NCBI RefSeq assembly: GCF_014203425.1
Contig: NZ_JACHJC010000001.1
Span: forward strand, 3,038,001-3,102,000
Length of the DNA: 64,000 bases
Reading direction: 5' to 3'
Origin: Micromonospora echinospora
Lineage (GTDB): Bacteria > Actinomycetota > Actinomycetes > Mycobacteriales > Micromonosporaceae
Numbering within the stretch: the stretch's first letter is position 1; each line of letters starts with the position of its first letter. Of the stretch, positions 192-41,629 are shown piece after piece. A program made the position numbers and the translations under genes. The notes under the pieces are model-generated. The model saw only the letters and a list, made by a program, of their open reading frames with translations. It did not search any database and was not told where the DNA came from.

Positions 192-1784
192 ATGACCTCC
201 ACCGCCGACGCCGTCGTCATCGGAGCCGGGCACAACGGCCTGGTGGCCGCGAACCTGCTGGTGGACGCCGGCTGGGACGTCACGGTCCTGGAGGCCACCG
301 AGGCGCCCGGCGGGGCCGTGCGGTCCGCGTACGTGACAGCGCCCGGTTACCTCAGCGACCTGTACAGCTCGTTCTACCCGCTCGGTTACGCGTCCCCCGT
401 CCTGGACGGGCTGGACCTGGAACGGCACGGCCTGTCCTGGACGCACGCCCCGGACGTGCTGGCGCACCTGCTCCCGGACGGGCGGGCCGCGGTGGTCAAC
501 CGCGACCTGGACACCACAGCCGCGTCGATGGAGGCGTTCGCGCCCGGCGACGGGGAGCGCTGGCGGCACGCGTACGCCGACTGGCGTCAGGTCGCCGAGC
601 CGATGCTGCAGACCATCACCACCCCGTTCCCGCCGGTACGCGGCGGGCTCGGCCTGTTGCGGCAGCTCCGGATCGGCGGCGCGCTCCGGCTCGCCCGCCG
701 CCTCGTGCTGCCGGTACGCAAGCTCGGCGCGGAGCTGTTCGAGGGCGAGGGCGGGCCCGTGCTGCTGGCCGGCTGCGCCCTGCACACCGACCTGTCCCCG
801 GAGGAGGCCGGCTCCGGGGTGTACGGCTGGCTGCTCGCCATGCTCGGCCAGCAGGTGGGCTGGCCGGTGCCGGTCGGCGGCGCGCAGCGGATCACCGACG
901 CGCTGGTGGCCCGGCTGGTCGAGCGGGGCGGGCGGATCGAGTACAGCGCCCGGGTCGAGCGGGTGCTCACCGCCCGGGGCCGCGCGATGGGCGTACGCAC
1001 CGCCGGGGGAACCGACTGGCGGGCGCGCCGCGCGGTGCTCGCCGACGTGCCCGCGCCTGCGCTCTTCCTCGACCTGGTCGGCGCGGCGGCGCTGCCGCCC
1101 CGGATGGTCGAGGACCTGGCGCACTTCAAGTGGGACGGCTCCACGCTCAAGGTCGACTGGGCGTTGTCCACGCCGGTGCCGTGGAAGAACCGGGAACTGG
1201 CCGGCGCCGGCACCGTGCACCTGGGCGCCGACATGGACGGCCTGACCACGTACGCGGCCGAGCTGGCCCGCGGCGAGCTGCCCCGGGACCCGTTCCTGCT
1301 GGTGGGGCAGATGTCGGTGGCCGACCCGAGCCACTCCCCGCCGGGCACCGAGTCGCTCTGGTCCTACACGCACCTGCCGTTCCGGCGGGACTGGCGGGCC
1401 GAGGACGTGGCGGGGCACGTGGAGCGGATGGAGGAGGTGCTGGAGGCGGCGGCACCCGGATTCCGGGCGTCGGTCGTCGGGCGGCACGTGGCCGGCCCGG
1501 CCGACCTGGAGGCCGCCCAGCCCAGCCTGGTGGGCGGCGCGCTCGGCGGTGGCACTGCTGCCGCGTACCAGCAGTTGTTCCTGCGGCCGATCCCCGGCCT
1601 GGGCCGCGCCGACACCCCGGTGGACCGGCTCTACCTGGCCAGCGCCTCCGCCCACCCCGGCGGCGGCGTCCACGGCGCGCCGGGGGCGAACGCGGCACGG
1701 GCCGCGCTGGCCCGCGATCGGGCCGTCACCGGCGCGGTGTACGCCCGCACGATCGCCGCCGCCCACCGCGCCGTCTACCGCTGA
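192..1784 (+). CDS. FAD-dependent oxidoreductase, phytoene dehydrogenase-like (COG1233 type)
   Basis: 530 aa. The N-terminus carries the dinucleotide-binding fold VVIGAGHNGLVAANLL (about residues 8-23), followed by the acidic VLEA and the GGAVRS segment typical of CrtI/phytoene-desaturase-like flavoproteins. The C-terminus has the matching FAD-contact stretch LYLASASAHPGGGVHGAPG. Such enzymes oxidise or isomerise carotenoids or other lipids, but many actinobacterial members have no known substrate. No crtB, crtE or other carotenoid gene is seen nearby, so I do not call it CrtI. The ATG at 192 follows a weak GGCGGA. It converges on the mannosyltransferase at 2224-3000, with a terminator hairpin between them. 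Confidence 0.85.
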   Translation: MTSTADAVVIGAGHNGLVAANLLVDAGWDVTVLEATEAPGGAVRSAYVTAPGYLSDLYSSFYPLGYASPVLDGLDLERHGLSWTHAPDVLAHLLPDGRAAVVNRDLDTTAASMEAFAPGDGERWRHAYADWRQVAEPMLQTITTPFPPVRGGLGLLRQLRIGGALRLARRLVLPVRKLGAELFEGEGGPVLLAGCALHTDLSPEEAGSGVYGWLLAMLGQQVGWPVPVGGAQRITDALVARLVERGGRIEYSARVERVLTARGRAMGVRTAGGTDWRARRAVLADVPAPALFLDLVGAAALPPRMVEDLAHFKWDGSTLKVDWALSTPVPWKNRELAGAGTVHLGADMDGLTTYAAELARGELPRDPFLLVGQMSVADPSHSPPGTESLWSYTHLPFRRDWRAEDVAGHVERMEEVLEAAAPGFRASVVGRHVAGPADLEAAQPSLVGGALGGGTAAAYQQLFLRPIPGLGRADTPVDRLYLASASAHPGGGVHGAPGANAARAALARDRAVTGAVYARTIAAAHRAVYR

Positions 1785-2223: not shown

Positions 2224-3000
2224 TCAGGAGTCGATGTTGCGGTGCCGGCTGCGCAGCTTGAACGGCATCAACGCGCTCTCGATCTTCGTGGCGGTGGTCA
2301 TCTTCGAGTCGCCGTCACGGCGCTCCTCGAAGCGGATCGGCACCTCCAGGATGGTGTGTCCCAGCTTGGTGGCGAGGTAGTGCATCTCCACCTGGAAGCT
2401 GTAGCCGTTCGACTGGACCCGGTCCAGCCCGATCTCGCGCAGCGCCTCGGCCCGCCAGATCTTGAACCCGGCGGTCAGGTCACGGATGCGCACCCGCAGC
2501 AGCGTGTGCACGTACAGGTTGGCCCAGCCGCTGAGCGCGCGCCGGTAGAGCGGCCAGTTCTCGTCCAGCTCACCGCCGGGCACGTACCGCGAGCCGATGA
2601 CCACCGAAGCCTGCGTGGAGAGCAGCGCGCCGAGCATGCCGGGCAGCGCCTCCGGCGGGTGCGACAGGTCGGCGTCCATCTGGGCGACGAAGTCCGCGCC
2701 GTCGTCGAGCGCCCGGCCGATGCCGTCCACGTACGCCCGGCCGAGACCCTCCTTGCCCGGGCGGTGCACCACCGTCACCCGCTCCGGGTGCTCGATGGCC
2801 AGCTTGTCGGCGACCTCACCGGTGCCGTCCGGGGAGTTGTCGTCCGCGACCAGCACCTTCAACCCCGGCAGAGGCAACGCGAGGAGGCGCTCGACCAGCA
2901 CCGGGAGGTTGCCCGCCTCGTTGTAGGTCGGAACGACGACGGTCAGGCGCGCATCCCCCCACGGGGAGGGCAACTGCACGGGTTCGATCATCACGGACAT
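2224..3000 (-). CDS. Polyprenol-phosphate mannosyltransferase (GT2, Ppm1/DPM-like)
   Basis: 258 aa. It has the GT2 start TVVVPTYNEAGNLPVLVERL-type region, then VLVADDNSPDGTGEVADKL and the metal-binding DADLSHPPEALPGML, as in dolichol/polyprenol-phosphate-mannose synthases. It would move mannose from GDP-mannose to polyprenyl phosphate at the membrane, making the donor for lipomannan and protein mannosylation. No membrane domain is fused, so it is the stand-alone catalytic form. The ATG at 3000 sits one base after GAGG. The next ATG (2991, MIEPVQ) has a better spacing of about 10 nt and may be the true start. It fits the glycan theme of the neighbouring cluster. Confidence 0.88.
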   Translation of the reverse strand: MSVMIEPVQLPSPWGDARLTVVVPTYNEAGNLPVLVERLLALPLPGLKVLVADDNSPDGTGEVADKLAIEHPERVTVVHRPGKEGLGRAYVDGIGRALDDGADFVAQMDADLSHPPEALPGMLGALLSTQASVVIGSRYVPGGELDENWPLYRRALSGWANLYVHTLLRVRIRDLTAGFKIWRAEALREIGLDRVQSNGYSFQVEMHYLATKLGHTILEVPIRFEERRDGDSKMTTATKIESALMPFKLRSRHRNIDS

Positions 3001-3083: not shown

Positions 3084-3530
3084 TCACCGCTCCGGCTTCT
3101 GCCGCGTCGCGATGTCGGACAGCCGGGCCAGCGTCTCCCGGTTGCGCAGATGCAGCACCAGGTCGTTGAGCTTGGTCCGGACCCACCGCAGCGGCCCGGC
3201 GGCGAAGTCCTCGCCGAGGGTCACCCGGGTCCGGCCGTCCTCCAGCGGTTCCAGGGCGAACGCCACGATCGCCTCGCCGGCCGGCCACAACCCGGCGCGC
3301 AGCACGAGCCGGTGCGGCGCCTGGCACTCCAGCACGGTGGACTTGTCCTGGAGCGAGAACGGCCAGGGCCCGGCCCGATGGTGCAGATTGCTGCCGACGC
3401 GGGGCCACGCGTCGTCCACGTCCCGCACGTGCGCGGTGCCCACCACCCAGTCGCTGTACGTCCACCCGTCCGCGAGCACCTCGAAGACCTGCTCCGGGGG
3501 CGCGTCGATCACCTTCTCCACAACCGCCAT
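3084..3530 (-). CDS. SRPBCC (START/polyketide cyclase-fold) family protein
   Basis: 148 aa from ATG 3530 (MAVVEKVIDAPPEQVFEVLA). In-frame GTG 3533 and TTG 3536 lie just upstream. The opening beta strand and 'APPEQVFEVL' helix, the later VTLGEDFAAGPL and the long C-terminal helix are typical of the Bet v1-like SRPBCC fold. Such proteins hold a hydrophobic ligand, but the ligand here is unknown. It lies 83 bases upstream of the Ppm1-like gene on the same strand and is divergent from the heptose operon. Confidence 0.75.
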   Translation of the reverse strand: MAVVEKVIDAPPEQVFEVLADGWTYSDWVVGTAHVRDVDDAWPRVGSNLHHRAGPWPFSLQDKSTVLECQAPHRLVLRAGLWPAGEAIVAFALEPLEDGRTRVTLGEDFAAGPLRWVRTKLNDLVLHLRNRETLARLSDIATRQKPER

Positions 3531-3712
3531 CACCAACCGGTACCCCGGCGCGGGCCGCCGCTAACGGCGATGCGGGTTAGCTTCTCGGGGGCGGCGGGTA
3601 ACGCCGGACCGGGCCGGTCGTGGCACGCGTGCGCCGGCCGTGCGGCACCGGCGGGGCGCGCCTGGCGCCGACGTCGACGTTTACTCCTCGGGGGCTCGGG
3701 AACCCGCCGCCC

Positions 3713-5377
3713 GTGCGACGGGACCAGGAGCGGGATCAGTGCAGGTCAGCCCGGGTTGACCCGGGTGCTGACCGGTTCCCGTCCGGCCTGTACGACGCGG
3801 TGCTGCTGGACCGGGACGGCACGCTGGTCGAGGACGTGCCGTACAACGGCGATCCGGAGAAGGTACGGCCGGTGCCGGGTGCTCGGGAGGCGCTGGACCG
3901 CTTGCGGGCGGCCGGGTTGCGGCTCGCCGTCGTCACGAACCAGTCCGGCCTGGCCCGCGGCTACTTCACCGCGGACGAGCTGCGCCTGGTCAACGCCCGG
4001 GTGGAGGAGCTGCTCGGGCCCTTCGACCACTGGGCGATCTGCCCGCACGCGGAAGCCGACGGGTGCGCCTGCCGCAAGCCCGCGCCCGGCCTCGTGCACG
4101 AGGCCGCTGCCGCGCTCGGCACCACACCCACCCGGTGCGTGCTGATCGGGGACATCGGCGCGGACACGGCTGCCGCCGCCGCTGCGGGGGCCGCCGCGAT
4201 CATGGTGCCCACGCCGGCCACCCGGGCCGCCGAGGTGGCCGCCGCGCCGACAGTCGCCGCCGACCTGCCGGACGCGGTGAGCACCGTGCTGGCAAGGATG
4301 CGCCTGACGGCCGCGCCGGAACGCGCGCGCCGCAGCCGCCGGGGCACTGTCCTCGTCGTGCGCAGCGACGCCGCCGGGGACGTGCTGGTGACCGGTCCGG
4401 GCATCCGCGCGGTAGCGTCCGGGGCCGAGCGGGTGGTGCTGCTGTGCGGGCCACGCGGCCGGGCCGCAGCCGAACTGCTGCCCGGCGTGGACGAGATCAT
4501 CGAAGCGCCGCTGCCCTGGATCGACGCGCCCGCCCCACCCGTCGACCCCGCCGCCATGCGCGCGCTCACCGACCGGCTCGCCACGGTACGCGTCGACGAA
4601 GCGGTCGTGTTCACCTCCTTCCACCAGTCACCCCTGCCCCTGGCGCTGCTGCTGCGCCTGGCCGGCGTGCCCCGGATCAGCGCCATCAGCGACGACTACC
4701 CCGGCAGCCTCCTCGACGTCCGCCACCGCGTCCCCGCCGGCGTACCCGAACCCGAACGCGCCCTGTCCCTCGCCGCCGCCGCCGGCTACGCGCTGCCCGA
4801 CCACGACGAACCCGCCCTGCGCATCCGCACCGACCGCCTTCCGCCGCCCGCGGCCGAGGCCGGGGCGGCCGGCTACGTGGTGCTGCACCCCGGATCCTCG
4901 GTGGAGACCCGCGCCTGCCCGGAGGAACTGGCCACCCGCGTGGTCCGGGTGCTCGGCGCGGCCGGTCACCGGGTGGTGGTCACCGGCGGGCCGGACGAGC
5001 GAGGGCTGACCGCGCGGGTCGCCGCGGCGGGCGGCGTCGACCTGGGCGGGCGCACCGGGCTGGCGGAGCTGGCCGCGGTGGTCGCCGGAGCCGGCGCGCT
5101 GGTGGTCGGCAACACCGGGCCCGCGCACCTGGCCGCGGCGCTCGGCGTGCCGGTGGTGAGCCTGTTCGCGCCGACGGTGCCGTTCGGACAGTGGGGGCCC
5201 TACCGGGTGCCGACCGTGCGCCTCGGTGACGCGGCGGCGCCCTGCCGGGACACCCGCGCCACCGTCTGCCCGGTCCCCGGGCACCCGTGCCTGTCGGCGG
5301 TCGAGCCGGGCCGGGTGCTGGAGGCGTTGCGGCTGCTCGGCGTGCCGGCGCCGGTCCCGGGCGGGGTGGTCGGATGA
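3713..5377 (+). CDS. Fusion: GmhB-like heptose-bisphosphate phosphatase + GT9 (heptosyltransferase-like)
   Basis: 554 aa from GTG 3713. Open frame runs back to GTG 3620, but that part is Arg/Pro-rich and unlike protein. Residues ~28-180 are a HAD-IIIA phosphatase: nucleophile motif D33-R-D35-G-T, then VVTNQSGLARG, then the zinc-site pattern C110-P-H112...C118-A-C120 followed by RKPAPG, a hallmark of GmhB, and IGDIGAD. GmhB removes the 7-phosphate of D-glycero-D-manno-heptose 1,7-bisphosphate. Residues ~230-550 are a GT9 domain, with VVRSDAAGDVL at its start and the donor-site stretch NTGPAHLAAALGVPVVSLFAP. Fusing a pathway enzyme to the likely user of its product is unusual. It overlaps the next gene by 4 nt (ATGA). 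The start is uncertain, with no clear ribosome binding site. Confidence 0.85.
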   Translation: MRRDQERDQCRSARVDPGADRFPSGLYDAVLLDRDGTLVEDVPYNGDPEKVRPVPGAREALDRLRAAGLRLAVVTNQSGLARGYFTADELRLVNARVEELLGPFDHWAICPHAEADGCACRKPAPGLVHEAAAALGTTPTRCVLIGDIGADTAAAAAAGAAAIMVPTPATRAAEVAAAPTVAADLPDAVSTVLARMRLTAAPERARRSRRGTVLVVRSDAAGDVLVTGPGIRAVASGAERVVLLCGPRGRAAAELLPGVDEIIEAPLPWIDAPAPPVDPAAMRALTDRLATVRVDEAVVFTSFHQSPLPLALLLRLAGVPRISAISDDYPGSLLDVRHRVPAGVPEPERALSLAAAAGYALPDHDEPALRIRTDRLPPPAAEAGAAGYVVLHPGSSVETRACPEELATRVVRVLGAAGHRVVVTGGPDERGLTARVAAAGGVDLGGRTGLAELAAVVAGAGALVVGNTGPAHLAAALGVPVVSLFAPTVPFGQWGPYRVPTVRLGDAAAPCRDTRATVCPVPGHPCLSAVEPGRVLEALRLLGVPAPVPGGVVG

Positions 5378-6348
5378 ACATCCTGCTGTGGCACGTGCAC
5401 GGCTCCTGGACGACGTCCTTCGTGCACGGCAAGCACCGCTACCTCGTGCCGGTGACCCCCGACCGGGGCCCCTACGGCCTCGGCCGGGCGCGCACCTACC
5501 CGTGGCCGGACAGCGCCGTCGAGGTCACTCCCGAGGCTCTGCGGGACACCGACGTCGACCTGGTCGTCCTCCAGCGCCCCGAGGAGCTCGACCTGGCCGC
5601 CGAGTGGCTCGGCCGCCGTCCCGGCCGCGACCTTCCGGCGATCTACGTCGAGCACAACACGCCGAAAGGCGACGTGCCGAACACCCGGCACCCGATGGCC
5701 GACCGCGACGACCTGCTCCTGACGCACGTCACGGCCTTCAACGAGCTGTTCTGGGACAACGGGACGACCCGCACCACAGTGGTCGACCACGGCGTCGTAC
5801 CGCCCGCCGTCGAATGGACCGGGAAGCTCGACCGCCTCGCCGTCGTCATCAACGAGCCGGTACGCCGCTGGCGGATCACCGGCACCGACCTTCTCGCCCG
5901 GTTCGCCGCCGTCGCCCCGCTCGACGTCTACGGCATGAAGGTGGCCGGCCTCGCCGCCCACCTCGGGCTGCCCGAGGACCGGCTGACCAGCCACGACGAC
6001 GTACCGCAGCACGCCATGCACGCCGAACTCGCCAAACGGCGCGCCTACCTGCACCTGTGCCGCTGGACCTCACTCGGCCTCAGCCTCGTCGAGGCCATGA
6101 CCATGGGCATGCCCGTGGTGGCGCTGGCCACCACGGAAGCGGTGGAAGCCGTACCGCCGGAGGCGGGCGCGCTCTCCACCCGGGTCGACACGCTCGTCGA
6201 CGCCGCCCGTGGCCTGCTGGACGACCCGGAGTCCGCCCGCCGGGCGGGCGCCGCGGCGCGGGCCGCCGCCCGGAGCCGCTACGGCCTGGAGCGTTTCCTC
6301 GCCGACTGGGACCGGCTGCTGGAGGAGGAAGTATGCGCATCGCGATGA
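5374..6348 (+). CDS. Glycosyltransferase, GT4-like (GT-B fold)
   Basis: 324 aa; starts MNILLWHVHGSWTTSF, its ATG overlapping the previous stop. Supporting regions are IYVEHNTPKGDVPNTRHP, VVINEPVRRW and, near the C-terminus, CRWTSLGLSLVEAMTMGMPV. This last stretch matches the donor-binding helix of GT4-like enzymes, with the second Glu of the E-x7-E motif kept but a Ser/Thr-rich segment in place of EPFG. Likely cytoplasmic. From context it probably adds a sugar, possibly heptose, to an envelope or metabolite acceptor, but donor and acceptor cannot be read from the sequence. It overlaps the next gene by 16 nt, suggesting coupled translation. Confidence 0.8.
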   Translation: MNILLWHVHGSWTTSFVHGKHRYLVPVTPDRGPYGLGRARTYPWPDSAVEVTPEALRDTDVDLVVLQRPEELDLAAEWLGRRPGRDLPAIYVEHNTPKGDVPNTRHPMADRDDLLLTHVTAFNELFWDNGTTRTTVVDHGVVPPAVEWTGKLDRLAVVINEPVRRWRITGTDLLARFAAVAPLDVYGMKVAGLAAHLGLPEDRLTSHDDVPQHAMHAELAKRRAYLHLCRWTSLGLSLVEAMTMGMPVVALATTEAVEAVPPEAGALSTRVDTLVDAARGLLDDPESARRAGAAARAAARSRYGLERFLADWDRLLEEEVCASR

Positions 6349-7550
6349 TCTCGGAGCACGCCAGCCCGCTCGCCGTCCTCGGCGGCGAGGACGCCGGTGG
6401 CCAGAACACGCATGTCGCGGAGCTCTCCGCCGCGCTCGCGGCCGCCGGTCACGACGTCCGGGTCTACACCCGGCTCGACGCGGTGGACCTGCCGGTGAGC
6501 GTCCGCGCCCCGGACGGGTACGAGGTGGTGCACGTACCGGCCGGGCCGGCCGAGCCGGTGGCCAAGGACGACCTGCTGCCGTACATGCCGGCGTTCGGGG
6601 ACTGGCTGGCCGACCGGTGGCGCGCCGGCGACTGGCAGCCCGAGGTGGTGCACGCGCACTTCTGGATGAGCGGGCTGGCCGGGCTCGCCGCGGCCCGCCG
6701 CGCGGGCGTGCCGGTGGTGCAGACCTACCACGCGCTCGGTACCGTCAAGCGCCGCCACCAGGGCGTGCAGGACACCAGCCCGCCGGGCCGGGTCGAGCAC
6801 GAGCGGAAGCTGGGCCGCTCGGTGGACCGGGTGGTCGCCCAGTGCCAGGACGAGGTCGCCGAGCTGGTCCGGATGGGTGTGCCCCGCTCCCGGATGACAG
6901 TCGTGGCGTCGGGGGTGAACCTGTCCACGTTCTCCCCGCTCGGCCCGGTCGCCGACCGTGACGGCGGCCGGGCCCGCATCCTCACCGTCGGCCGGCTGGT
7001 CGAGCGCAAGGGCTTCCAGGACGTCATCCGGGCCGTCGCCGAGGTGCCGGACGCGGAGTGCGTCGTGGTCGGCGGCCCGCCGGCCGGGCTGCTGGAGACC
7101 GACCCGTACGCGTTGCGCCTGCGGACGCTGGCCCGCTCCCTCGGCGTCGCCGACCGGGTACGGCTGGTCGGCGCGGTGCCCCGGGAGGAGATGGGCCGCT
7201 GGTACCGGTCGGCGGACGTGCTCGTCGCCGCCCCCTGGTACGAGCCGTTCGGGCTCACCCCGCTGGAAGCGATGGCGTGCGGCGTACCGGTGGTCGGAAC
7301 CGCCGTCGGCGGGCTCATCGACACGGTGGTGCCCGGCCGCACCGGCGACCTGGTGCCGGCCCGCGATCCGGCCGCCCTCGCCGCGGCGATCCGGGGCCTG
7401 CTCGGCGACCGGATCCGCCGGTTCGCCTACGCCACCGCGGCGCTGGAGCGGGCCCGCACCCGCTACTCGTGGGCCACCGCCGCGGACCGCCTCACCGAGC
7501 TGTACGGCGAGGTAACCACCGTCGGCCGCCCCACCCGGGTGGTCGCCTGA
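6333..7550 (+). CDS. Glycosyltransferase family 4 protein
   Basis: 405 aa, starting MRIAMISEHASPLAVLGGED. The glycine-rich GGEDAGGQNTHVAELSAAL resembles the sucrose-phosphate-synthase/MshA branch of GT4. The retaining-GT4 signature EPFGLTPLEAMACGVPVV (E-x7-E) is intact near residue ~305. ILTVGRLVERKGF marks the start of the donor domain. ATG 6333 follows GGAGGAAG, a good ribosome binding site, inside the previous gene. The stop overlaps the GmhA start (TGATG). It sits between the GmhB/GT9 fusion and GmhA, so a role in using the activated heptose is likely but not shown. Confidence 0.9.
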   Translation: MRIAMISEHASPLAVLGGEDAGGQNTHVAELSAALAAAGHDVRVYTRLDAVDLPVSVRAPDGYEVVHVPAGPAEPVAKDDLLPYMPAFGDWLADRWRAGDWQPEVVHAHFWMSGLAGLAAARRAGVPVVQTYHALGTVKRRHQGVQDTSPPGRVEHERKLGRSVDRVVAQCQDEVAELVRMGVPRSRMTVVASGVNLSTFSPLGPVADRDGGRARILTVGRLVERKGFQDVIRAVAEVPDAECVVVGGPPAGLLETDPYALRLRTLARSLGVADRVRLVGAVPREEMGRWYRSADVLVAAPWYEPFGLTPLEAMACGVPVVGTAVGGLIDTVVPGRTGDLVPARDPAALAAAIRGLLGDRIRRFAYATAALERARTRYSWATAADRLTELYGEVTTVGRPTRVVA

Positions 7551-8242
7551 TGGCGGCGACCCCGCCGGCCGCCGGCGGCACGCTGCTGGAGGACCACCTG
7601 GCGCTGCTGGCCGCCGCGCTGCTGCCGCTGCGGGAGTCGGAGCGGATGCTGGCCCGCTGGGGTGAGGAACTGGCGCACCGGCTCGCCGCCGGCGGGCGGC
7701 TGCTGGTGGCCGGCAACGGCGGCAGCGCCGCCGAAGCCCAACACCTCACCGCCGAACTCGTCGGCAAACTCCGCCATGACCGCCAACCCCTGTCCGCCAT
7801 CGCCCTGCACGCCGAAACCAGCGCCCTCACCGCCATCGCCAACGACTACGGGTACGACGAAACCTTCGCCCGACAGGTCCGCGCCCACGGCCGACCCGAC
7901 GACATCCTCCTACTCCTCACCACCAGCGGCACCAGCACCAACCTCCTCACCGCCGCCCACGCCGCCCACCAGACCGGCCTGCGCTGCTGGGCCTTCACCG
8001 GCCCCGCACCCAACCCCCTCGCCGACCTCTGCCACGAGCACCTGGCGATCGACTCGCCGGACGGGCAGGTGGTGCAGGAACTGCACCTGGTGGCCTCGCA
8101 CGTGCTCTGCGAGTACATGGAACGGGCGCTGCCCGCGGCGCTCGCCGCCCCGGCGCCGGCCGAACCGGTGCGTACCGGCGTCGAGGTGGTGCTCGGCGAC
8201 CCGGACCCGGCGGCGCCCGCCGGACCGGGAGGCCGGGCATGA
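7550..8242 (+). CDS. gmhA: Sedoheptulose-7-phosphate isomerase (GmhA, SIS domain)
   Basis: 230 aa. One SIS domain with VAGNGGSAAEAQHLTAEL, then AIANDYGYDETFARQV and LTTSGTSTNLLTAA, in the same order and spacing as E. coli GmhA. The C-terminal QVVQELHLVASHVLCEYME carries the conserved catalytic-region Glu/His. GmhA converts sedoheptulose 7-phosphate to D-glycero-D-manno-heptose 7-phosphate, the first step of ADP-heptose synthesis. An Ala/Pro-rich tail of ~35 residues follows the domain. The start ATG 7550 overlaps the upstream stop and its stop overlaps the HldE start. Gut-level alternative: a DiaA-like SIS protein, made unlikely by the HldE neighbour. Confidence 0.88.
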   Translation: MAATPPAAGGTLLEDHLALLAAALLPLRESERMLARWGEELAHRLAAGGRLLVAGNGGSAAEAQHLTAELVGKLRHDRQPLSAIALHAETSALTAIANDYGYDETFARQVRAHGRPDDILLLLTTSGTSTNLLTAAHAAHQTGLRCWAFTGPAPNPLADLCHEHLAIDSPDGQVVQELHLVASHVLCEYMERALPAALAAPAPAEPVRTGVEVVLGDPDPAAPAGPGGRA

Positions 8243-9735
8243 CGGGGCCGGTGGTGGTGCTCGGCGACACGCTGCTGGACCGCGACGTCGAAGGTCTGGT
8301 GAACCGGCTCTGCCCGGATTCCCCGGTGCCGGTGCTGGACGAGACGTCCTCCGTCGACCGTCCCGGGGGCGCCGGCCTGGCCGCGGTCTTCGCCGCCGCC
8401 CAGGGCGCCGAGGTCGCGCTGGTCACCGCCGTGGCCGACGACGCCGGCGGGGCCCGGCTCGGCACGCTGCTCGCCGCCGCGGGGGTGCGGTTGTACGCGC
8501 TGCCGCTGGCCGGCGCCACACCGGAGAAGGTCCGGCTGCGGGTACGGGGCCGGGTGCTGCTGCGCCACGACCGGGGCGGGGCGGCCGGCGTGCCCGGTCA
8601 GCCGAGCGACGCCGTGCTGCGGCTGATCGCCGGCGCGTCCGCCGTGCTGGTGAGCGACTACGGCCGGGGCGTGGCCGGGCATCCCGCGCTGCGCGCCGCG
8701 CTGGCCGCCACCCGGGCGCCCGTGGTCTGGGACCCGCATCCGCGCGGCCCGGCCGCCGTGCCCGGGGTGCACCTGGCCACCCCGAACGAGCCGGAGGCCC
8801 GCGACCTGGCGAAAACGCCGCCGGGCGGGTCCCGCCTGGCCGCCGCGTCCCGCAGCGCGCAGGCGCTGCGCCGCCGCTGGCAGGCGCGCGCGGTCGCGGT
8901 GACGCTCGGCGGGGACGGCGCGCTGCTCTGTCACGCCGGATCCACGCCCCTGGTGGTGCCGGCGCCACCGGCCGAGGGGGACACCTGCGGGGCGGGGGAC
9001 CGGTTCGCGTCCACGGCGACGCTGGCCCTGGCCCGGGGCGCGCTGGTCTCCGAGGCGGTGCAGGAGGCGGTGGCGGAGGCGTCCGCGTACGTGGCCGGGG
9101 GTGGGGTGGCCAGCGCGCTGCCGGCCCCGGTACGGGCGGTGGCCCCGGCGGTGGTCACCGGCGGCAGCGACCGGATCGGCGCCGGGGCGGCCGGTGAGGT
9201 GGTGGCCCGGGTACGCGCGGCCGGCGGCACCGTGGTGGCCACCGGCGGCTGCTTCGACCTGCTGCACGCCGGGCATGTGGCGACGCTCCAGGCGGCCCGG
9301 CAACTCGGCGACTGCCTGGTGGTCTGCCTCAACTCCGACGCCAGCGTGTCCGGGCTGAAGGGACCGGAGCGCCCGGTCGTGCCGCAGGGCGACCGAGGGC
9401 GGCTGCTCGCCGCGCTCGGCTGCGTCGACGCGGTGCTGATCTTCGACGAGCCGACCCCGGAGGCGGCGATGTCCTGGCTGCGCCCGGACATCTGGGTCAA
9501 GGGCGGCGACTACGCCAGCGGCGGCGGCGCGGAGACGCTGCCCGAGTCGGAGATCCTGGCCCGCTGGGGCGGGCACACGGTGGTCGTGCCGTACCTCGAC
9601 GGGCGCTCGACCACCGACATGATCGCGGCGGCGCGGGCGGGGCGGGGCAGCGCCGGCTGGCCGGCCGCGACGGTCGACCCGGCGGAGGCCGTCGCGCAGA
9701 CGGTGGTCCGGTCCACGGCGAAGGGAGCACGATGA
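8239..9735 (+). CDS. hldE: Bifunctional heptose-7-P kinase / heptose-1-P adenylyltransferase (HldE)
   Basis: 498 aa, two domains. Residues ~1-310 are a PfkB/ribokinase-type kinase ending in the D248-T-C-G-A-G-D254 motif, with D254 as catalytic base. Residues ~330-480 are a nucleotidyltransferase with GGCFDLLHAGHVATL (HAGH at 343-346), VCLNSDASVSGLKG and WVKGGDY, as in HldE. The kinase makes heptose 1,7-bisphosphate. After dephosphorylation (GmhB domain, 3713-5377), the second domain joins the 1-phosphate to AMP. Using ATP rather than CTP is inferred from the family. Domain order and length match Gram-negative HldE. It is linked by ATGA to a 16-codon open frame. Confidence 0.92.
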   Translation: MTGPVVVLGDTLLDRDVEGLVNRLCPDSPVPVLDETSSVDRPGGAGLAAVFAAAQGAEVALVTAVADDAGGARLGTLLAAAGVRLYALPLAGATPEKVRLRVRGRVLLRHDRGGAAGVPGQPSDAVLRLIAGASAVLVSDYGRGVAGHPALRAALAATRAPVVWDPHPRGPAAVPGVHLATPNEPEARDLAKTPPGGSRLAAASRSAQALRRRWQARAVAVTLGGDGALLCHAGSTPLVVPAPPAEGDTCGAGDRFASTATLALARGALVSEAVQEAVAEASAYVAGGGVASALPAPVRAVAPAVVTGGSDRIGAGAAGEVVARVRAAGGTVVATGGCFDLLHAGHVATLQAARQLGDCLVVCLNSDASVSGLKGPERPVVPQGDRGRLLAALGCVDAVLIFDEPTPEAAMSWLRPDIWVKGGDYASGGGAETLPESEILARWGGHTVVVPYLDGRSTTDMIAAARAGRGSAGWPAATVDPAEAVAQTVVRSTAKGAR

Positions 9736-9782
9736 ACGAGCGACGCATCCGTTCCGGCGCGGTCGCGCGGGCGGCGGCATGA
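9732..9782 (+). CDS. 16-residue mini-ORF bridging hldE and the SDR gene
   Basis: ATG 9732 overlaps the hldE stop by ATGA, and TGA 9780-9782 overlaps the SDR start by ATGA. The peptide reads MNERRIRSGAVARAAA. A good ribosome binding site (GGGAG, 9723-9727) precedes it at about 5 nt. The double exact overlap suggests it is translated, either as a coupling relay or as the remnant of a deleted operon gene. No independent evidence that the peptide has a function. Confidence 0.35.
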   Translation: MNERRIRSGAVARAAA

Positions 9783-10480
9783 GCGCCCCCGCTCCCGGAG
9801 CCGGGCCCGCGGTCCTGGTCACCGGCGGGTCGAGCGGGCTCGGCGCGGCGGTGGTCGCCGCGGTGGCCCGCTCAGGTGGACGCCCGCTGGTGCTGGACCG
9901 GCAGCGTCCCGCCGACGGGGTGCCCTGGGCCGAGTGCGACCTGGCCGACACCCGCGCCGCCGAGGCCGCCACCCGCGATCTCGCGGAACGCTCCGGCGGG
10001 CTGGACGCCGTGGTCACCGCCGCCGGCATGGACGTGCCGGGGAAGCTGGCCGACATCCCGGCGGAGACCTGGGAACGGATCGTCACTGTGGACCTGCTCG
10101 CCACGGCCGCGGTGATCCGGGCCGCGCTGCCCTGGCTGGAGGCGTCCCGCGGCAACATCGTCACGGTGGCCTCGACGCTGGGCGTGAAGGCGGTGAGCGA
10201 CGCGACGGCGTACTGCGCGGCGAAGTTCGGGGTGGTGGGCTTCACCCGGGCGCTCGCCGCCGAACTGGCCGGCGCGGTCGGCGTGACGCTGCTGATCCCG
10301 GGCGGCATGCGCACCGCGTTCTTCGACGAGCGGGACGCGCAGTACCGCCCCGGCCCGGACGCGGTGCTCAACGAGCCGTCCGACACCGCCGCCGCGGTCA
10401 TGTTCGCGCTGTCCCAGCCGGCCGGTTGCGCGGTACGCGAGATGGTGGTCTGCGCCGCGCAGGAGTCCTCGTACCCGTGA
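9779..10480 (+). CDS. Short-chain dehydrogenase/reductase in heptose operon
   Basis: 233 aa, a classical short SDR. The NAD(P) motif VTGGSSGLGAAVVAAVA is at the N-terminus, NIVTVAST comes before the active site, and the catalytic Y145-C-A-A-K149 pair follows. It is not HldD: that epimerase is an extended SDR of ~310 residues with a different layout. In this operon it may oxidise or reduce a heptose intermediate or the glycosylated product, but the substrate is unknown. It has ATGA/GTGA overlaps on both sides. Confidence 0.85.
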   Translation: MSAPAPGAGPAVLVTGGSSGLGAAVVAAVARSGGRPLVLDRQRPADGVPWAECDLADTRAAEAATRDLAERSGGLDAVVTAAGMDVPGKLADIPAETWERIVTVDLLATAAVIRAALPWLEASRGNIVTVASTLGVKAVSDATAYCAAKFGVVGFTRALAAELAGAVGVTLLIPGGMRTAFFDERDAQYRPGPDAVLNEPSDTAAAVMFALSQPAGCAVREMVVCAAQESSYP

Positions 10481-11436
10481 TCCTGGTGCTGCGGGCGCTC
10501 GGCGTCGGCGACCTGGTCACCGCCGTGCCGGCGCTGCGCGGCCTGCGCGCCGGCCTGCCGGGCCGGGAACTGGTGCTCGCCGCCCCGGACTGGCTGGCGC
10601 CGCTGGCGCAGCTGACCGGGGCGGTCGACCGGGTCCTGCCCACCACCGGGCCGGACCGGATCGGGTGGACCGGGCCAGCGCCGGAGGTGGCTGTCAACCT
10701 GCACGGGCGGGGGCCGCAGTCGCACCGGGCGCTGGCCGCTGTCCGGCCCGCCCGGACGCTCGCCTACCGCAATCCGGCGGCCGGTCATCCGGACGGCCCG
10801 GCCTGGGACGACGACGAGCACGAGGTCCGCCGCTGGTGCCGGCTGCTGCACGCGTACGGCCTGCCGGCCGACCCGGGAGACCTGGCGCTGCGCCGCCCGG
10901 CGGCGGTCGGCGTACCGGCCGGGGTGACGCTGCTGCACCCGGGCGGCAAGATTCCGGCGAAGCGCTGGCCGGCGGAGCGGTTCGCCGGGCTGGCCCGGGA
11001 GCTGACCGCGCGGGGCCACCGGGTGGCGGTCACCGGGTCGGCCGGCGAGCGGGAGCTGGCCGAGCGGGTCGCCCGCGACGGCGGGTTGCCGCCGGAGGCG
11101 GTGCTGGCCGGCCGGACCGGGCTGGCCGAGCTGGCCGCGCTCGTCGCGGGCGCACGGCTGGTGGTCAGCGGGGACACCGGCGTGGCGCACCTCGCCACCG
11201 GTTACGGCACCGCCTCCGTGGTGCTGTTCGGGCCGGTGCCGGCAGCGCACTGGGGTCCACCGGCGGACCGGCCCCGGCACCGCGCGCTGGGTGCGATCGA
11301 GCCCACCCCCGTCAACCGGGATTCGACCGGGTCACGCGGGGTAGGAACCCACCCGACGTTGGATGCCATCGGGATCGACGAGGTGGTGGCTGCGGTGGCC
11401 GCTGTGGAACGGGTCTCCGGTGCGGTTGCGGCGTAG
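10477..11436 (+). CDS. GT9 family glycosyltransferase (ADP-heptosyltransferase-like)
   Basis: 319 aa from GTG 10477 (MILVLRALGVGDLVTAVPAL), which overlaps the SDR stop. The opening LRALGVGDLVTAVPALRGL is the GT9 signature of WaaF/WaaC-type heptosyltransferases. TLLHPGGKIPAKRWP and SGDTGVAHLATGYGT form the ADP-heptose-binding face in the family. It would move a sugar, probably the heptose made by this operon, to an unknown acceptor. Together with the GT9 half of 3713-5377 this makes two GT9 modules. The last ~17 nt overlap the topoisomerase start. Confidence 0.87.
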   Translation: MILVLRALGVGDLVTAVPALRGLRAGLPGRELVLAAPDWLAPLAQLTGAVDRVLPTTGPDRIGWTGPAPEVAVNLHGRGPQSHRALAAVRPARTLAYRNPAAGHPDGPAWDDDEHEVRRWCRLLHAYGLPADPGDLALRRPAAVGVPAGVTLLHPGGKIPAKRWPAERFAGLARELTARGHRVAVTGSAGERELAERVARDGGLPPEAVLAGRTGLAELAALVAGARLVVSGDTGVAHLATGYGTASVVLFGPVPAAHWGPPADRPRHRALGAIEPTPVNRDSTGSRGVGTHPTLDAIGIDEVVAAVAAVERVSGAVAA

Positions 11437-12571: not shown

Positions 12572-13627
12572 TCAGCCCTGTTTCAAGTATGTCCGCGCCG
12601 AGTTGACTGCGGATGCCGTGGTGTTGACGATCCGTGCCGGTTCCAGGTGACGGGTCCGGTATGCCTGCGGCGTCTCCGCGTGCGCGTTCCGGAACGCGCG
12701 GCTGAAGTGGGCCTTGTCCCGGAAACCCCAGCGGGCGGCGATGAGCTGGATCGAGCGGTCGCTCAGGCCCGGGTCGGCGAGGTCGCGGCGGCACCGGGCC
12801 AGCCGCTCGTCACGGATGTACGCCGCGACAGTGGTCTCCTCGTCCTCGAAGAGCCGGTGCAGCGAGCGCACCGAGATGTGGTGCGCGTCGGCGATCCGGC
12901 CCGGGTCCAGCGTGGCGTCGCCGAGGTGCTGCTCCACGTACGAGCGCACCTGGGCGAGCAGGGCGCGCCGCCGGATCTCGGTGGGGACCGCCTCCTCGGA
13001 GACCAGGTTGCGGCCGAGCAGCGTGGCGACCAGGTCCAGGCCGATCCCGCCCAGCTGCTCGGCGTCGGCCGCGTGGTACTGCTCGGGGTGACCGGTGACC
13101 CGGATGAGGAAGTCGGCGAGCAGGCCGCCGACGCCCTCGGAGCCGGACATCCGCCCGGCGAACAGGGGAGCGAGGCGGCGGCGCGGCAGCGGCAGCGCGT
13201 CGTACGGCATCAGGGCCACGATCGAGCGGGCGTACGCGGGCCCGGCCGGGTCGGCGTGGTGGCTGACCTCGTGCGGGCGGGAACAGTCGTAGAACGTCAG
13301 GTCGCCGGGGCGGCAGCGGGCCCGCTGCCCCGCCTGGTCGGCCTGGCTGGTCCCGGTGAGCGTGAGCGCGAGCAGGTAGTAGTCCGGGTCGGAGCGCTGG
13401 ATCAGTTTCGAGGTGCGGACGCAGTCCACCGACGGGTAGCGGTAGCGGATGAGCCGCATCCGGCCCAGCTCGATGAACTCGGCCCGGGCGACGAAGTCGT
13501 GGGCGTGCGCGCTGTGCACCCGCAGCGGCGTCGGGCTGCTGGCCATCATGTCCAGCCACGTGCCGAAGCGCTCCCGTGGTGGCAGAACTTCCGTGTCGAG
13601 CACCTGCCGGCGCAGCTTGCCGTCCAT
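12572..13627 (-). CDS. AraC family transcriptional regulator
   Basis: 351 aa from ATG 13627, with GGGGG about 10 nt upstream; a TTG three bases earlier is in frame. The N-terminal ~200 residues look like the AraC_binding_2 cupin-type sensor (RCRPGDLTFYDCSRPHEVSH). The C-terminal ~110 residues form the double HTH, with ISVRSLHRLFEDEETTVAAY in the first helix pair and AARWGFRDKAHFSRAFRNA in the second. The inducer is unknown. It stands alone, convergent with the topoisomerase gene. A palindrome 84 bases upstream (13711-13727) is a candidate operator. Confidence 0.9.
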   Translation of the reverse strand: MDGKLRRQVLDTEVLPPRERFGTWLDMMASSPTPLRVHSAHAHDFVARAEFIELGRMRLIRYRYPSVDCVRTSKLIQRSDPDYYLLALTLTGTSQADQAGQRARCRPGDLTFYDCSRPHEVSHHADPAGPAYARSIVALMPYDALPLPRRRLAPLFAGRMSGSEGVGGLLADFLIRVTGHPEQYHAADAEQLGGIGLDLVATLLGRNLVSEEAVPTEIRRRALLAQVRSYVEQHLGDATLDPGRIADAHHISVRSLHRLFEDEETTVAAYIRDERLARCRRDLADPGLSDRSIQLIAARWGFRDKAHFSRAFRNAHAETPQAYRTRHLEPARIVNTTASAVNSARTYLKQG

Positions 13628-13670
13628 CAACCGACCCCCGTCGTTTTGTCACACCTGTTAAAACCAGGAC

Positions 13671-13704
13671 GCCCCACGGGGCCGGAAAGCGACACCCGTG
13701 GGGC
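13671..13704 (-). terminator. Hairpin terminator of the recQ-13754 unit
   Basis: A 10-bp perfect stem, GCCCCACGGG (13671-13680) with CCCGTGGGGC (13695-13704), and a 14-nt loop. It lies 50 bases past the stop of the minus-strand gene 13754-14257 and before the AraC start. Confidence 0.65.
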
Positions 13705-13710
13705 AGTGAC

Positions 13711-13727
13711 GTCCGTCATTGACGGAC
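13711..13727. promoter_or_regulatory. Perfect palindrome upstream of AraC gene
   Basis: GTCCGTCA-T-TGACGGAC has two 8-bp arms and a one-base centre. It is 84 bases upstream of the AraC start codon, between the terminator hairpin and the stop of 13754-14257. It could be an operator or part of a longer terminator. The short spacing favours protein binding. Confidence 0.4.
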
Positions 13728-13753
13728 AGGGGAGCCTTCTGTTAGCAGTCCGT

Positions 13754-14257
13754 TCAGTCGTTCAGCACCTGGGCCAGCCGGTCGCGGAACCGGCGCTCGG
13801 AGTCGGTCACCGTGTCGCCGCCGAGGCCCAGGAGGCCGCCGCTGGACGCCGCGCCCACCACCTGCTCGGCGATGTCCACCAGCCAGTGCCGGTACGCCCC
13901 GGCCTGGCCCTCGTCCACCCGGGCGGCGAGCAGGGCGGCGGCCTGACCGGCCCGGGCCAGCACGTCCTCGATCATCGCCTTCGGGTCCTGCGGCGTGAGC
14001 ACCGGAAGCTCCGCGCCGGTCTCCGGGTCGCCGACCCGGGACACGATCTCGCCGGCCACCGCGGCGACGAGAGGGCTCGCCGACTCGCGGCCGGCGGCGA
14101 TGGTCTCCAGCCCGGCGGCGTTCTCGGCCATGGTGCGGCGGGTGCCGTCGGACTCGGCGGCGGCCGCCGCGGTGAGCACCGACTGCGGCAGTCCCACCAG
14201 CAGCCCCCACTCCTCGTCGGAGACACCGAACCGGGTGTACGCCGGCTGCTCGATCAC
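13754..14257 (-). CDS. Hypothetical helical protein downstream of recQ
   Basis: 167 aa from GTG 14257, with AGGGG about 8 nt upstream. No known domain recognised. It is Ala-rich and predicted mostly helical, opening with FGVSDEEWGLLVGLPQSV and later MIEDVLARAGQAAALLAARV and GAYRHWLVDIAEQVVGAASS. No signal peptide or membrane segment. It lies 63 bases downstream of recQ on the same strand and may be co-transcribed. The layout (helical, AASSGGLLGLGGD near the end) recalls small stress-type proteins, but I assign no function. Confidence 0.7.
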   Translation of the reverse strand: MIEQPAYTRFGVSDEEWGLLVGLPQSVLTAAAAAESDGTRRTMAENAAGLETIAAGRESASPLVAAVAGEIVSRVGDPETGAELPVLTPQDPKAMIEDVLARAGQAAALLAARVDEGQAGAYRHWLVDIAEQVVGAASSGGLLGLGGDTVTDSERRFRDRLAQVLND

Positions 14258-14320
14258 GATCAGGCCCCTTTCGCCGTGGTCGTCGTTGTCGACGGGCGCC
14301 GCCGCGGCGCCCGGGTCAGG

Positions 14321-15952
14321 CTAGTCGAGTTCCAGCAGTCCCTGTTCGGACACCACGGGCACGGAGAGCGTCTTGTAACCGACCTCGTCGAAGAGCACCG
14401 TCATCCGGTCCTCCTCGTAGCTGAGCACCAGGCCGGCGCCCCACTCCGGGTGGCGTACCTGGCTGTGCACGGGGAACGGCCCGACCGCGCCGTCGGCGGC
14501 CACGCTGGTGCCGGCGTGGCAGTTGTCGCAGTGCCCGCAGACCTTCTGCATCTGCTCGCCGAAGTACGCCAGCAGGGCCTGGCCGCGGCAGCCGGTGGTC
14601 TCGGCGAAGGCGCGCATCATGTCGGTACGCGAGCGGGTCACTGTCTGCTGCCGTTCCGCCTCGGCGAGCGCCGCGCGGCCCGACTCGGCGGCCTCGGGCG
14701 CGTACCGGGGCGCGCCGATGCGCTGCCCGGCCCGCGGCTCGGCGGCGCCGATCTGCTCCAGCAGGGACAGGTACTGGCCCAGCTTGCGCGGACCGAGGCC
14801 GGTCAGCTCGCGCAGCTCCTTGCGGTTGCGGGCCTTGCCGCGCAGCACCGCGGCCAGTTCGGCCAGTTCCTTTTCGTCCGGCAGTCCGCCGCTGAAGTAG
14901 CGCTGCAGGCCGACGTCCTCGGCGCGCCACAGCAGCAGCACCCGGGCCGGCGCCCCGTCGCGCCCGGCGCGGCCGATCTCCTGGAAGTAGCTGTCCGGCG
15001 AGTCGGGCAGCGCCATGTGCGCCACCCAGGCGATGTTCGGCTTGTCGATGCCCATGCCGAACGCCGACGTGGCCACCATGATCGGCACCCGGTCGGCGAG
15101 GAACGCCTCGTGCAGCTCGTGCCGGGCCGCCGTGGGCATGCCGCCGTGGTAGAACTCGGCCGGGAAACCGGCGCCGGTGAGCCGCTCGGACAGCTCCTCG
15201 GCCGCCCGGCGGGTCGGCACGTAGATGATGCCGGGCCGCTCGTCGTCGCGCAGCAACGCGATCAGCCGCCGCCACCGGTAGTCGTCGGTGGGGCAGTGGG
15301 CCACCTCCAGGAAGAGGTTCGGCCGGTCCAGCCCGGAGACCACCACCTCGGGCTCGCGCAGCCGCAGCCGGGCGATGATGTCGTCGCGTACCGGCGGGGA
15401 GGCGGTGGCGGTGAGCGCCACCACCGGCGGGCGGCCCAGGCCGTCGATCAGGTGGCCCAGCGCCAGGTAGTCCGGCCGGAAGTCGTGGCCCCAGGCGGAG
15501 ATGCAGTGCGCCTCGTCGATCGCCACCAGCGCCGGCTTCAGCTCACGGACCTCGGCGAGCCGGTCCGGGTTGCTCAGCGCCTCCGGCGTGATGAACAGGA
15601 ACTCCGCGCGCCCGGCCCGGATGTCCTCGATCGCCTCGGCCTGCTGGGCGGCGCTCTCGTCCGAGCTGATCCGCACCGCGCGCAGCTCCGGACGCTGCCG
15701 CTCGTTGAGCGCGGCGATCTGGTCCTGCTGCAACGCCAGCAGCGGGGAGATCACCACCGTCGGGCCCGGGATCAGGCTGGCCGGGATCTGGTAGATCGCC
15801 GACTTGCCGGCGCCGGTGGGCAGCACCACCAGGGCGTCGCGGCGCTTCATGACGGCACGCATGGCGGCGAGCTGGTTGGGCCGCAGCGCGGTCCAGCCGA
15901 ACAGGTTCCGCGCCGCCCGGCGCAGGCTGGAGGAGTGCGTCGTCAGTTTCAT
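14321..15952 (-). CDS. recQ: ATP-dependent DNA helicase RecQ
   Basis: 543 aa from ATG 15952. Helicase motifs in order: LPTGAGKSAIYQIP (Walker A), IDEAHCISAWGHDFR (DEAH, typical of RecQ), ALTATASPPVRDDI (motif III), then the second RecA domain with IIYVPTRRAAEELSE, ATSAFGMGIDKPNIAWV and QEIGRAGRDG (motif VI). The Cys-rich CGHCDNCHAG near residue 480 is part of the RecQ zinc site. The winged-helix/HRDC regions are short or absent. The last ~60 residues form a small basic-poor tail (HPEWGAGLVLSYEEDRM) often seen in actinobacterial RecQ. It unwinds DNA 3'-5' in repair and recombination. Confidence 0.93.
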   Translation of the reverse strand: MKLTTHSSSLRRAARNLFGWTALRPNQLAAMRAVMKRRDALVVLPTGAGKSAIYQIPASLIPGPTVVISPLLALQQDQIAALNERQRPELRAVRISSDESAAQQAEAIEDIRAGRAEFLFITPEALSNPDRLAEVRELKPALVAIDEAHCISAWGHDFRPDYLALGHLIDGLGRPPVVALTATASPPVRDDIIARLRLREPEVVVSGLDRPNLFLEVAHCPTDDYRWRRLIALLRDDERPGIIYVPTRRAAEELSERLTGAGFPAEFYHGGMPTAARHELHEAFLADRVPIMVATSAFGMGIDKPNIAWVAHMALPDSPDSYFQEIGRAGRDGAPARVLLLWRAEDVGLQRYFSGGLPDEKELAELAAVLRGKARNRKELRELTGLGPRKLGQYLSLLEQIGAAEPRAGQRIGAPRYAPEAAESGRAALAEAERQQTVTRSRTDMMRAFAETTGCRGQALLAYFGEQMQKVCGHCDNCHAGTSVAADGAVGPFPVHSQVRHPEWGAGLVLSYEEDRMTVLFDEVGYKTLSVPVVSEQGLLELD

Positions 15953-16001
15953 CAAGCGCCTCAGCTACCCCCGGCGATCCCGCGCGAAACCGTTCGCCCT
16001 C

Positions 16002-16952: not shown

Positions 16953-16968
16953 GGTGGGTGCCCTCTCC

Positions 16969-16994
16969 GCCCTGTCCGGACGTCCGGACAGGGC
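16969..16994. promoter_or_regulatory. 26-bp perfect palindrome upstream of LLM oxidoreductase
   Basis: The left half GCCCTGTCCGGAC (16969-16981) is the exact reverse complement of bases 16982-16994, with no loop. It sits directly upstream of the ribosome binding site of the minus-strand gene 16002-16952. A zero-loop palindrome suits a dimeric repressor better than a terminator, although it also follows the stop (17039) of the small membrane-protein gene. No regulator gene lies beside it. Confidence 0.6.
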
Positions 16995-17038
16995 AAGCCC
17001 TACCCCCGGCGGCGGGCTCCAACCCGGCCGGCGTGGGC

Positions 17039-17161
17039 TCAGCGGCGGAACATGGCCCGGATCGCGATCAGCAGGAACAGGCCGCCGACGATCAGGCCGA
17101 GCAGGCGTACGCCGGGGATGTCGGCGGCGCTCGTGGCGTCGGCGAGCGGCAGGGCGGACAT
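17039..17161 (-). CDS. 40-aa single-pass membrane protein
   Basis: MSALPLADATSAADIPGVRL is followed by one hydrophobic helix, LLGLIVGGLFLLIAIRAMF, and a basic end RR. This fits a small inner-membrane peptide with a cytoplasmic C-terminus. The ribosome binding site GGGAG lies 9 nt upstream but inside a 6-bp hairpin. It is too short for standard gene calling. Support is the clean topology, the start/RBS and position between two real genes. Function unknown. Confidence 0.55.
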   Translation of the reverse strand: MSALPLADATSAADIPGVRLLGLIVGGLFLLIAIRAMFRR

Positions 17162-17177
17162 GTGGGAACTCTCCCAC
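17162..17177 (-). promoter_or_regulatory. Small hairpin holding the ribosome binding site of the 40-aa gene
   Basis: GTGGGA (17162-17167) pairs with TCCCAC (17172-17177) around ACTC. Read on the minus strand, the GGGAG Shine-Dalgarno is in the stem and the start codon CAT(17159-17161) touches its base. Opening the stem would be needed for initiation. Confidence 0.35.
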
Positions 17178-17200
17178 GGGTGGTCGCGGGGCGCCAGCGG

Positions 17201-17228: not shown

Positions 17229-17300
17229 CTGGGCGGTGTGACCATGGCAGCACCCGCCGGCCCCGGCGGGTCCGTGGGGGAGACGGGGGTACGACAGCAC

Positions 17301-41617: not shown

Positions 41618-41629
41618 GGGGAGGGCGCA

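Follow-up and report, generated by a model that had tools for sequence, protein, structure and literature searches.

What use might a bacterium that seems to lack lipopolysaccharide (LPS) have for an activated heptose? The question is raised by a 64,000-nucleotide stretch of the Micromonospora echinospora genome (NZ_JACHJC010000001.1, positions 3,038,001 to 3,102,000; hereafter the window), in which positions 3713-11436 of the forward strand form a single compact operon of seven open genes, each overlapping or lying close to the next. A first-pass annotation had read there a GmhA, a two-domain HldE, a GmhB-like domain, two GT9 and two GT4-like glycosyltransferase modules and a short-chain dehydrogenase/reductase (SDR) in overlapping genes; family scans and motifs agree with this content, and the bounds given, 3713 and 11436, both hold. 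The same annotation suggested an acceptor not yet described; the idea that no comparable system is known is not supported: the operon's gene content, and the gene order in a Streptomyces cellulosae locus (L067), fit the cwg operon (SCO6179-6190) of Streptomyces coelicolor. We consider it probable that the window operon is the Micromonospora version of an actinobacterial cwg gene set, a link drawn by gene order and annotation, with L067 and a second Streptomyces locus, L068, standing in for S. coelicolor. With similar confidence we propose that the operon makes a nucleoside diphosphate (NDP)-activated D,D-heptose, from which its second GT9 enzyme (GT9b) and partner transferases build a short heptose-containing cell-envelope glycoconjugate.

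A predicted pathway to activated heptose

Every step from sedoheptulose 7-phosphate to an activated D,D-heptose has a candidate domain in the operon, with active-site motifs in place and glycosyltransferases alongside, which at the level of sequence bears out what had been claimed. All genes lie on the forward strand. GmhA (7550-8242; TIGR00441), the predicted sedoheptulose 7-phosphate isomerase, aligns to solved phosphoheptose isomerases (PDB 2xbl, E 1.9e-38) across the motifs QH...E and Q..H, presumably the His/Glu/Gln/His of the metal site. HldE (8239-9735), the predicted heptose 7-phosphate kinase and heptose 1-phosphate nucleotidyltransferase, combines a PfkB kinase domain (GAGD) with a nucleotidyltransferase domain (HAGH, of the form HxGH) and aligns with one solved heptose kinase and one solved nucleotidyltransferase. 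We envision that its kinase domain yields the 1,7-bisphosphate, from which the GmhB domain would remove the 7-phosphate. This HAD-type phosphatase occupies residues about 28-190 of the first gene product (3713-5377), where it is fused to a GT9 domain (GT9a); it carries DRDGT and CPH..CAC, that is, the DxD and zinc CxH...CxC patterns, and aligns to solved D,D-heptose bisphosphatases, zinc cysteines included. It passes the NCBIfam HAD-IIIA and histidinol-phosphatase domain models and scores higher with beta-type GmhB models (117.7 and 71.7 bits) than with the alpha model (42.9), all of them below cut-off. Pfam recognises the families throughout (GT9 81 and 91 bits, SIS_2 75, PfkB 92 with CTP_transf_like 52, GT4 120). 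The motifs are widely kept: among 81 sequences, HxGH is present in 80, each GmhB motif in 73 and the GmhA motifs in 78 and 77, and the GmhB misses are mostly loci cut by contig ends.

Would such a heptose serve LPS? The host genome, one contig of 7.13 Mb, gave no match to LpxC, and its best HldD match scores 108.7 bits where the cut-off is 274.6 (the HldD model finds matches in all 14 control genomes and exceeds its cut-off in two). This speaks against a role in LPS, in line with the earlier expectation that the host should lack it, and the heptose is predicted to remain D,D, because no HldD step would follow. As to the nucleotide, the first-pass annotation spoke of ADP-heptose; the call of an NDP-heptose stands, though naming ADP alone may restrict it too far. 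At the end of the nucleotidyltransferase stands YLDGRSTT, in which position 5 is Arg and the first residue is Tyr, where the rule (F/L)xxGxSTT has F or L; across 80 related loci position 5 is Arg in 74, Tyr in four mycobacteria and His in two. Arg at this position (STTR5) is reported, in a commentary (PMC11461863), to permit CDP- and UDP-heptose besides ADP-heptose, and given this residue the NDP-heptose is perhaps made with several nucleotides.

Which of the transferases might use it? GT9b (10477-11436; PF01075, 90.8 bits) is the better candidate and likely a heptosyltransferase, because it carries equivalents of HepI residues D13, K192 and D261, which we take to be numbered and to function as in that enzyme, while GT9a consistently has Asn in place of an Asp. 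In GT9a the D13 equivalent is kept and Arg and Asn stand at the K192 and D261 positions; Asn replaces the Asp of the HepI DTG motif in all 74 genuine rows covering the site (L051, L061, L062 and L069 left out as cross-hits to the other GT9, from loci where GT9a is missing or cut, and L005 because its row does not reach the site). The loss of the HepI lysine from GT9a was tried as a distinctive change and rejected: 78 of the 79 rows have Arg at this position, and only the Asp-to-Asn change is consistent. The corresponding GT9b lysine is itself Arg in 29 of 79 rows of other loci; these 79 rows include two cross-hits to the other GT9 (L007 and L076), from loci that lack GT9b or are cut there.

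In this reading, GT9a and the two GT4-like enzymes would add further sugars. The short GT4s (5374-6348), a marker of the gene set, matches Pfam GT4 only in its C-terminal half and solved structures weakly (best E 0.0016), and its WHVHG and RWTSLGLSL are invariant in 20 aligned sequences. GT4m (6333-7550) is MshA-like (TIGR03449, 259 bits against a cut-off of 462), with 6kih, 3c4q and 3c48 as nearest solved structures. The classical SDR oxidoreductase (9779-10480; motifs TGGSSGLG and YCAAK), separated from hldE by a 43-nucleotide gap, would probably modify a sugar; it has a relative in every non-Streptomyces locus and in none of the four Streptomyces loci. Hydropathy profiles of the operon proteins and of five additional Streptomyces proteins gave no convincing membrane segment, the two stretches barely above threshold both lying within GT9 domains. 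Because all operon enzymes thus look soluble, assembly would take place at the cytoplasmic side.

A conserved gene cluster

The arrangement is not a chance one, for the gene set recurs in the loci recruited by HldE. We compared the best 80 of at least 236 confirmed HldE matches, from Micromonospora, Salinispora, Plantactinospora, Actinoplanes and its kin, Dactylosporangium, Virgisporangium, Streptomyces, Saccharothrix, Mycobacterium, Arthrobacter, Amnibacterium, one Nocardioidaceae metagenome-assembled genome (MAG) and one unplaced MAG, and most of them keep the same set. GT4s and GT4m are shifted upstream in four mycobacteria; L079 and L082 have a GT9b-like gene elsewhere and reversed; L056 gave no GT4s match, L071 no gmhA match and L076 no true GT9b. 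Twelve of the 80 loci hit a contig end in or beside the operon; a 60-bp test picks out ten of them, and L051 and L077 are the other two. In the Amnibacterium locus L079, a second HldE-like match and an extra GT9 (13514-17575) lie near its cwg-type cluster.

Does the association hold beyond loci chosen by similarity? A comparison across actinobacteria had been proposed with the first reading of the operon. When 296 genomes were sampled evenly across the class, 73 had GT4s and 69 had HldE. The two occur together in 68, GT4s alone in five and HldE alone in one, and in 65 of the 68 they lie within 15 kb on one contig. Across the wider class the genes form a conserved cluster that does not everywhere make up a single operon.

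Gene fusions vary within it. By a motif test the GmhB-GT9a fusion is found in 60 of 81 sequences, and it looks like a Micromonosporaceae trait because the same test finds the Streptomyces, mycobacterial and Arthrobacter loci unfused. GmhA and HldE share one frame in only two of the 81 sequences by motif test, a three-domain form seen in two Actinoplanes (L053 and L054, about 9434-11338). In mycobacterial L074, L078 and L080, a GT2 and a GmhB domain occupy one open frame (e.g., L080 6637-8394), a fusion other than that of the window.

The cwg operon and the missing carbamoyltransferase

What is known of cwg? PMC6767563, citing Hong et al. (2002), describes S. coelicolor SCO6179-6190 as an operon whose predicted product is a glycan of the cell wall and as a target of sigma-E, with one promoter that is partly sigma-E dependent and induced by vancomycin. 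A table in PMC5839063 lists SCO6186 (cwgH) as phosphoheptose isomerase and SCO6187 (cwgI) as bifunctional synthase/transferase, and SCO6182 (cwgD) as "dehydratase", with transferases around SCO6186 and SCO6187 in an operon of twelve genes. The twelve genes of L067 run epimerase, carbamoyltransferase, GT2, GmhB, GT9a, GT4s, GT4m, GmhA, HldE, GT9b, GT2, GT2, an order that fits this annotation. Window and L067 share the order GmhB, GT9a, GT4s, GT4m, GmhA, HldE, GT9b. The window differs from cwg in lacking the epimerase, the carbamoyltransferase and three GT2 genes, in the gmhB-GT9a fusion, in the SDR between hldE and GT9b and in showing no sigma-E motif; because the carbamoyltransferase, epimerase and GT2 of the twelve-gene operon are missing, we treat it as a cwg variant.

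One difference concerns the carbamoyltransferase. In clusters outside Micromonospora, a GT2 and an O-carbamoyltransferase of the NodU type are mostly added. Three of four Streptomyces loci have an NDP-sugar epimerase/dehydratase, as do all four mycobacterial loci and the Nocardioidaceae MAG, and mycobacterial L074 further adds a UDP-glucose dehydrogenase-type enzyme. Among long loci (over 21 kb), the carbamoyltransferase is absent from all 41 of Micromonospora, Salinispora and M. pattaloongensis, as opposed to 18 of 20 others that have it, Amnibacterium and Arthrobacter being the two without. From this pattern we infer that carbamoyltransferase and GT2 were lost at the window site in the Micromonospora lineage. 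The product would thus be O-carbamoylated in most other lineages and not at the window locus. Carbamoylated heptose occurs in Pseudomonas LPS, where PMC8005017 ascribes it to a putative carbamoyltransferase, WapO; because of this precedent, a carbamoyl-heptose is plausible in the fuller clusters.

A trace of such a fuller cluster persists in the host. The only carbamoyltransferase match in its genome is a 62-63-residue fragment that lies elsewhere than the window operon; in a search with an Actinoplanes carbamoyltransferase, this single site aligns over 63 residues at 89% identity. It belongs to a scar on the reverse strand (L089 7259-8783; host about 2.857-2.859 Mb), an internal-deletion remnant of a carbamoyltransferase-type cwg cluster, which retains carbamoyltransferase residues 1-62 and GT4s residues 27-54 and 295-324, together with a GT4m of full length that is 72% identical to that of the window; no match to the remaining cluster genes was found within the 18 kb examined. 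A search of 120 further Micromonospora genomes gave a match to some portion of the scar query in every one, and at least 30 match its carbamoyltransferase part wholly or nearly so. Genome G336 has a similar scar (L101), and G196 carries, besides a window-type copy, a second cluster (L100 6725-17038) that is complete and includes carbamoyltransferase and GT2. This second cluster shares with the window the heptose genes, SDR, GT4s, GT4m and GT9s; its GT4m is 73% identical to that of the window and falls together with those of the two scars. In a GT4m tree of 33 rows, grouping is mostly by host family, and within Micromonosporaceae the window-type rows stand apart from the carbamoyltransferase-type rows (L100 and the two scars), several forks being weakly supported. 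G196, with both copy types, and the lineages that kept or lost the carbamoyltransferase offer a built-in natural comparison.

A second heptose locus was noted in the host (L090 9807-13610; about 1.070-1.074 Mb), with a GT9, a GT2 and a further HldE-like protein of 631 residues, which has an insert in its kinase domain and a nucleotidyltransferase domain above cut-off (204 bits against 181.5). Because no GmhA or GmhB match lies within the 19 kb examined there, this locus may draw on the window operon.

The operon start and its neighbours

The 5' end of the operon is conserved as DNA. BLAST and an alignment of 33 sequences mark positions 3680-3775 of the forward strand, comprising promoter-side sequence and the first codons, as near-invariant, with GATCAGTGCAGGTCAG at 3734. 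Of the 80 loci, 49 have a match at the corresponding place upstream (Micromonospora, Salinispora, Plantactinospora), the one in M. pattaloongensis being only 37 nucleotides long. The GTG start of gmhB-GT9a at 3713 is supported because all 50 sequences (the 49 loci with this leader, plus the window) stay in frame as far as LDRDGT despite insertions and deletions. A riboswitch or leader RNA at 3680-3775 was considered and rejected: Rfam has no family at gathering threshold in the window (one chance-level match near the start, E 0.6, on the other strand), the fold is no better than that of shuffled sequences (z -0.44), and the part from 3713 is in frame in all 50 sequences. Some Actinoplanes and Dactylosporangium loci repeat GATCAGTGCAGGTCAG upstream of the carbamoyltransferase, with one or two mismatches about 75-100 nucleotides before the match (L052, L054, L057 and L063), and two Streptomyces loci have GGTTACTCAGGTCAG ahead of the epimerase. 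No AGGTCA site of the GATCAGTGCAGGTCAG type was found upstream in L100, L072, two mycobacterial loci, Saccharothrix or Arthrobacter, and the match in Amnibacterium is unlike GATCAGTGCAGGTCAG. We offer the motif as a lead only.

Around the operon, a CrtO-like oxidoreductase (192-1784, forward strand) and a GT2 (2224-3000, reverse strand) adjoin it upstream. Most loci of Micromonospora and Salinispora keep both, as does Plantactinospora; other families gave no match of this kind, and the two genes are probably outside the operon proper. A topoisomerase IB gene lies directly downstream, as it does in seven of ten Actinoplanes-type loci. Farther away, a protein pair at 40685-42790 resembles, by eye, actinobacterial acyltransferase/PimA mannosyltransferase genes.

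What the operon might make

Several observations weigh against the reading of the operon as a cwg-type set that makes a heptose-containing envelope glycan. None of the NCBIfam equivalog models for the heptose pathway passes its curated cut-off (HldE 245 bits of 521, rfaE_dom_II 169.5 of 181.5, GmhA 151 of 209, PRK08942 GmhB 118 of 178), so the enzyme names come from motifs and context. The cwg identity is one of order and annotation, with Streptomyces L067 and L068 compared in place of S. coelicolor. In the 65 genomes with both markers close together, the best HldE and GT4s are on the same strand in 44 and on opposite strands in 21, and G173 and G188 hold the genes in another order. No sigma-E-like promoter was found upstream of the window operon or of Streptomyces L067, L068 and L072: a loose form (AAC-N15-18-CGTC) precedes gmhB in 10 of 71 sequences, with 4.0 expected from simple shuffling, the window not among them; in L067, L068, L072 and five Micromonosporaceae loci, no stricter form was found ahead of the first gene of the cluster; and the published S. 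coelicolor cwg promoter finds at best six mismatches in L067 (other strand, 653) and nine in L068, both away from the immediate upstream region. Finally, the operon holds no flippase, polymerase or ligase gene, so that its placement in the envelope derives from the regulation reported for Streptomyces.

Could the operon instead make a diffusible heptose-bearing small molecule, a natural product or a signal? Soluble enzymes and an operon without export or polymerisation genes would suit such a product, and sister clusters contain NodU-type carbamoyltransferases, whose family is represented in antibiotic clusters as well. NDP-heptose, moreover, feeds septacidin-type nucleoside antibiotics according to PMC10948575. 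However, as the first-pass annotation had already remarked, no antibiotic scaffold genes are seen adjacent; this holds for the immediate neighbours scanned, namely the CrtO-like, GT2 and topoisomerase IB genes, with the small gene at 3084-3533 and the genes farther out unscanned. Presence of both markers in 68 of 296 genomes and a mostly vertical GT4m tree are also unlike a typical secondary-metabolite cluster, and the S. coelicolor operon responds to vancomycin (PMC6767563). We therefore regard a small molecule as unlikely, though it is the strongest of the alternatives.

A slightly weaker possibility is that isomerase, kinase and nucleotidyltransferase act on a phosphosugar other than that of D-glycero-D-manno-heptose, such as an altro-heptose or a hexose. 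The sub-threshold equivalog scores would permit this, and HygP, along with GmhB and HldE, serves to make ADP-altro-heptose (PMC10948575). Against it, GmhA matches solved phosphoheptose isomerases through its metal-site motifs, and domains for all four steps occur together with GT9 enzymes; we doubt that another sugar is involved. Cytoplasmic attachment of the heptose to a protein, in the manner of the autotransporter heptosyltransferases, has a precedent in Escherichia coli (PMC11461863) and would agree with soluble transferases and an operon without lipid-carrier genes, but four transferase modules suggest an oligosaccharide and no candidate acceptor gene was noticed beside the operon in 21 loci, few of whose neighbours are annotated, so we consider it very improbable.

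Implications and relation to known systems

If the operon is a cwg-type gene set for a heptose glycan, what follows for cwg itself? According to PMC6767563, the operon has been known as a sigma-E target since 2002; the tie to heptose is what our analysis adds. Our literature search, which covered mainly titles and abstract openings and subscription journals thinly, recognised no heptose-containing cwg product; in the publications mentioning cwg that were searched, no word starts with "heptose", and one lists "phosphoheptose isomerase". Reading cwg as an NDP-heptose gene set leads to a chemical prediction, heptose and carbamoyl-heptose in actinobacterial envelopes, and, with both markers in about a quarter of the class sample, NDP-heptose may be common in Gram-positive soil bacteria. 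More tentatively, and with somewhat less than even confidence, we suggest that what cwg makes is an actinobacterial glycoconjugate of D-glycero-D-manno-heptose, which would bear O-carbamoyl groups in most lineages but not in Micromonospora. Such a product would be the Gram-positive equivalent of the heptose inner core. NDP-heptose is a known immune signal from Gram-negative bacteria, a general point to which the first-pass annotation's mention of ALPK1 belongs, and the precursors made here might possibly be immune agonists too.

How does this system compare with others that use activated heptoses? Tang et al. are said to have described NDP-heptose synthetases of actinobacteria in 2022. These enzymes and the septacidin and hygromycin pathways have in common with the window an NDP-heptose or a heptose derived from sedoheptulose 7-phosphate; the window differs from them in its two-domain HldE with separate GmhA and in that no nucleoside or aminoglycoside scaffold genes are seen next to it. 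The Gram-negative route to ADP-L,D-heptose and the LPS inner core (GmhA, HldE, GmhB, HldD, WaaC/F) differs in its HldD and in the LPS context marked by LpxC, neither of which is recognised in the window host, yet the two systems share their first four steps and the GT9 family of transferases.

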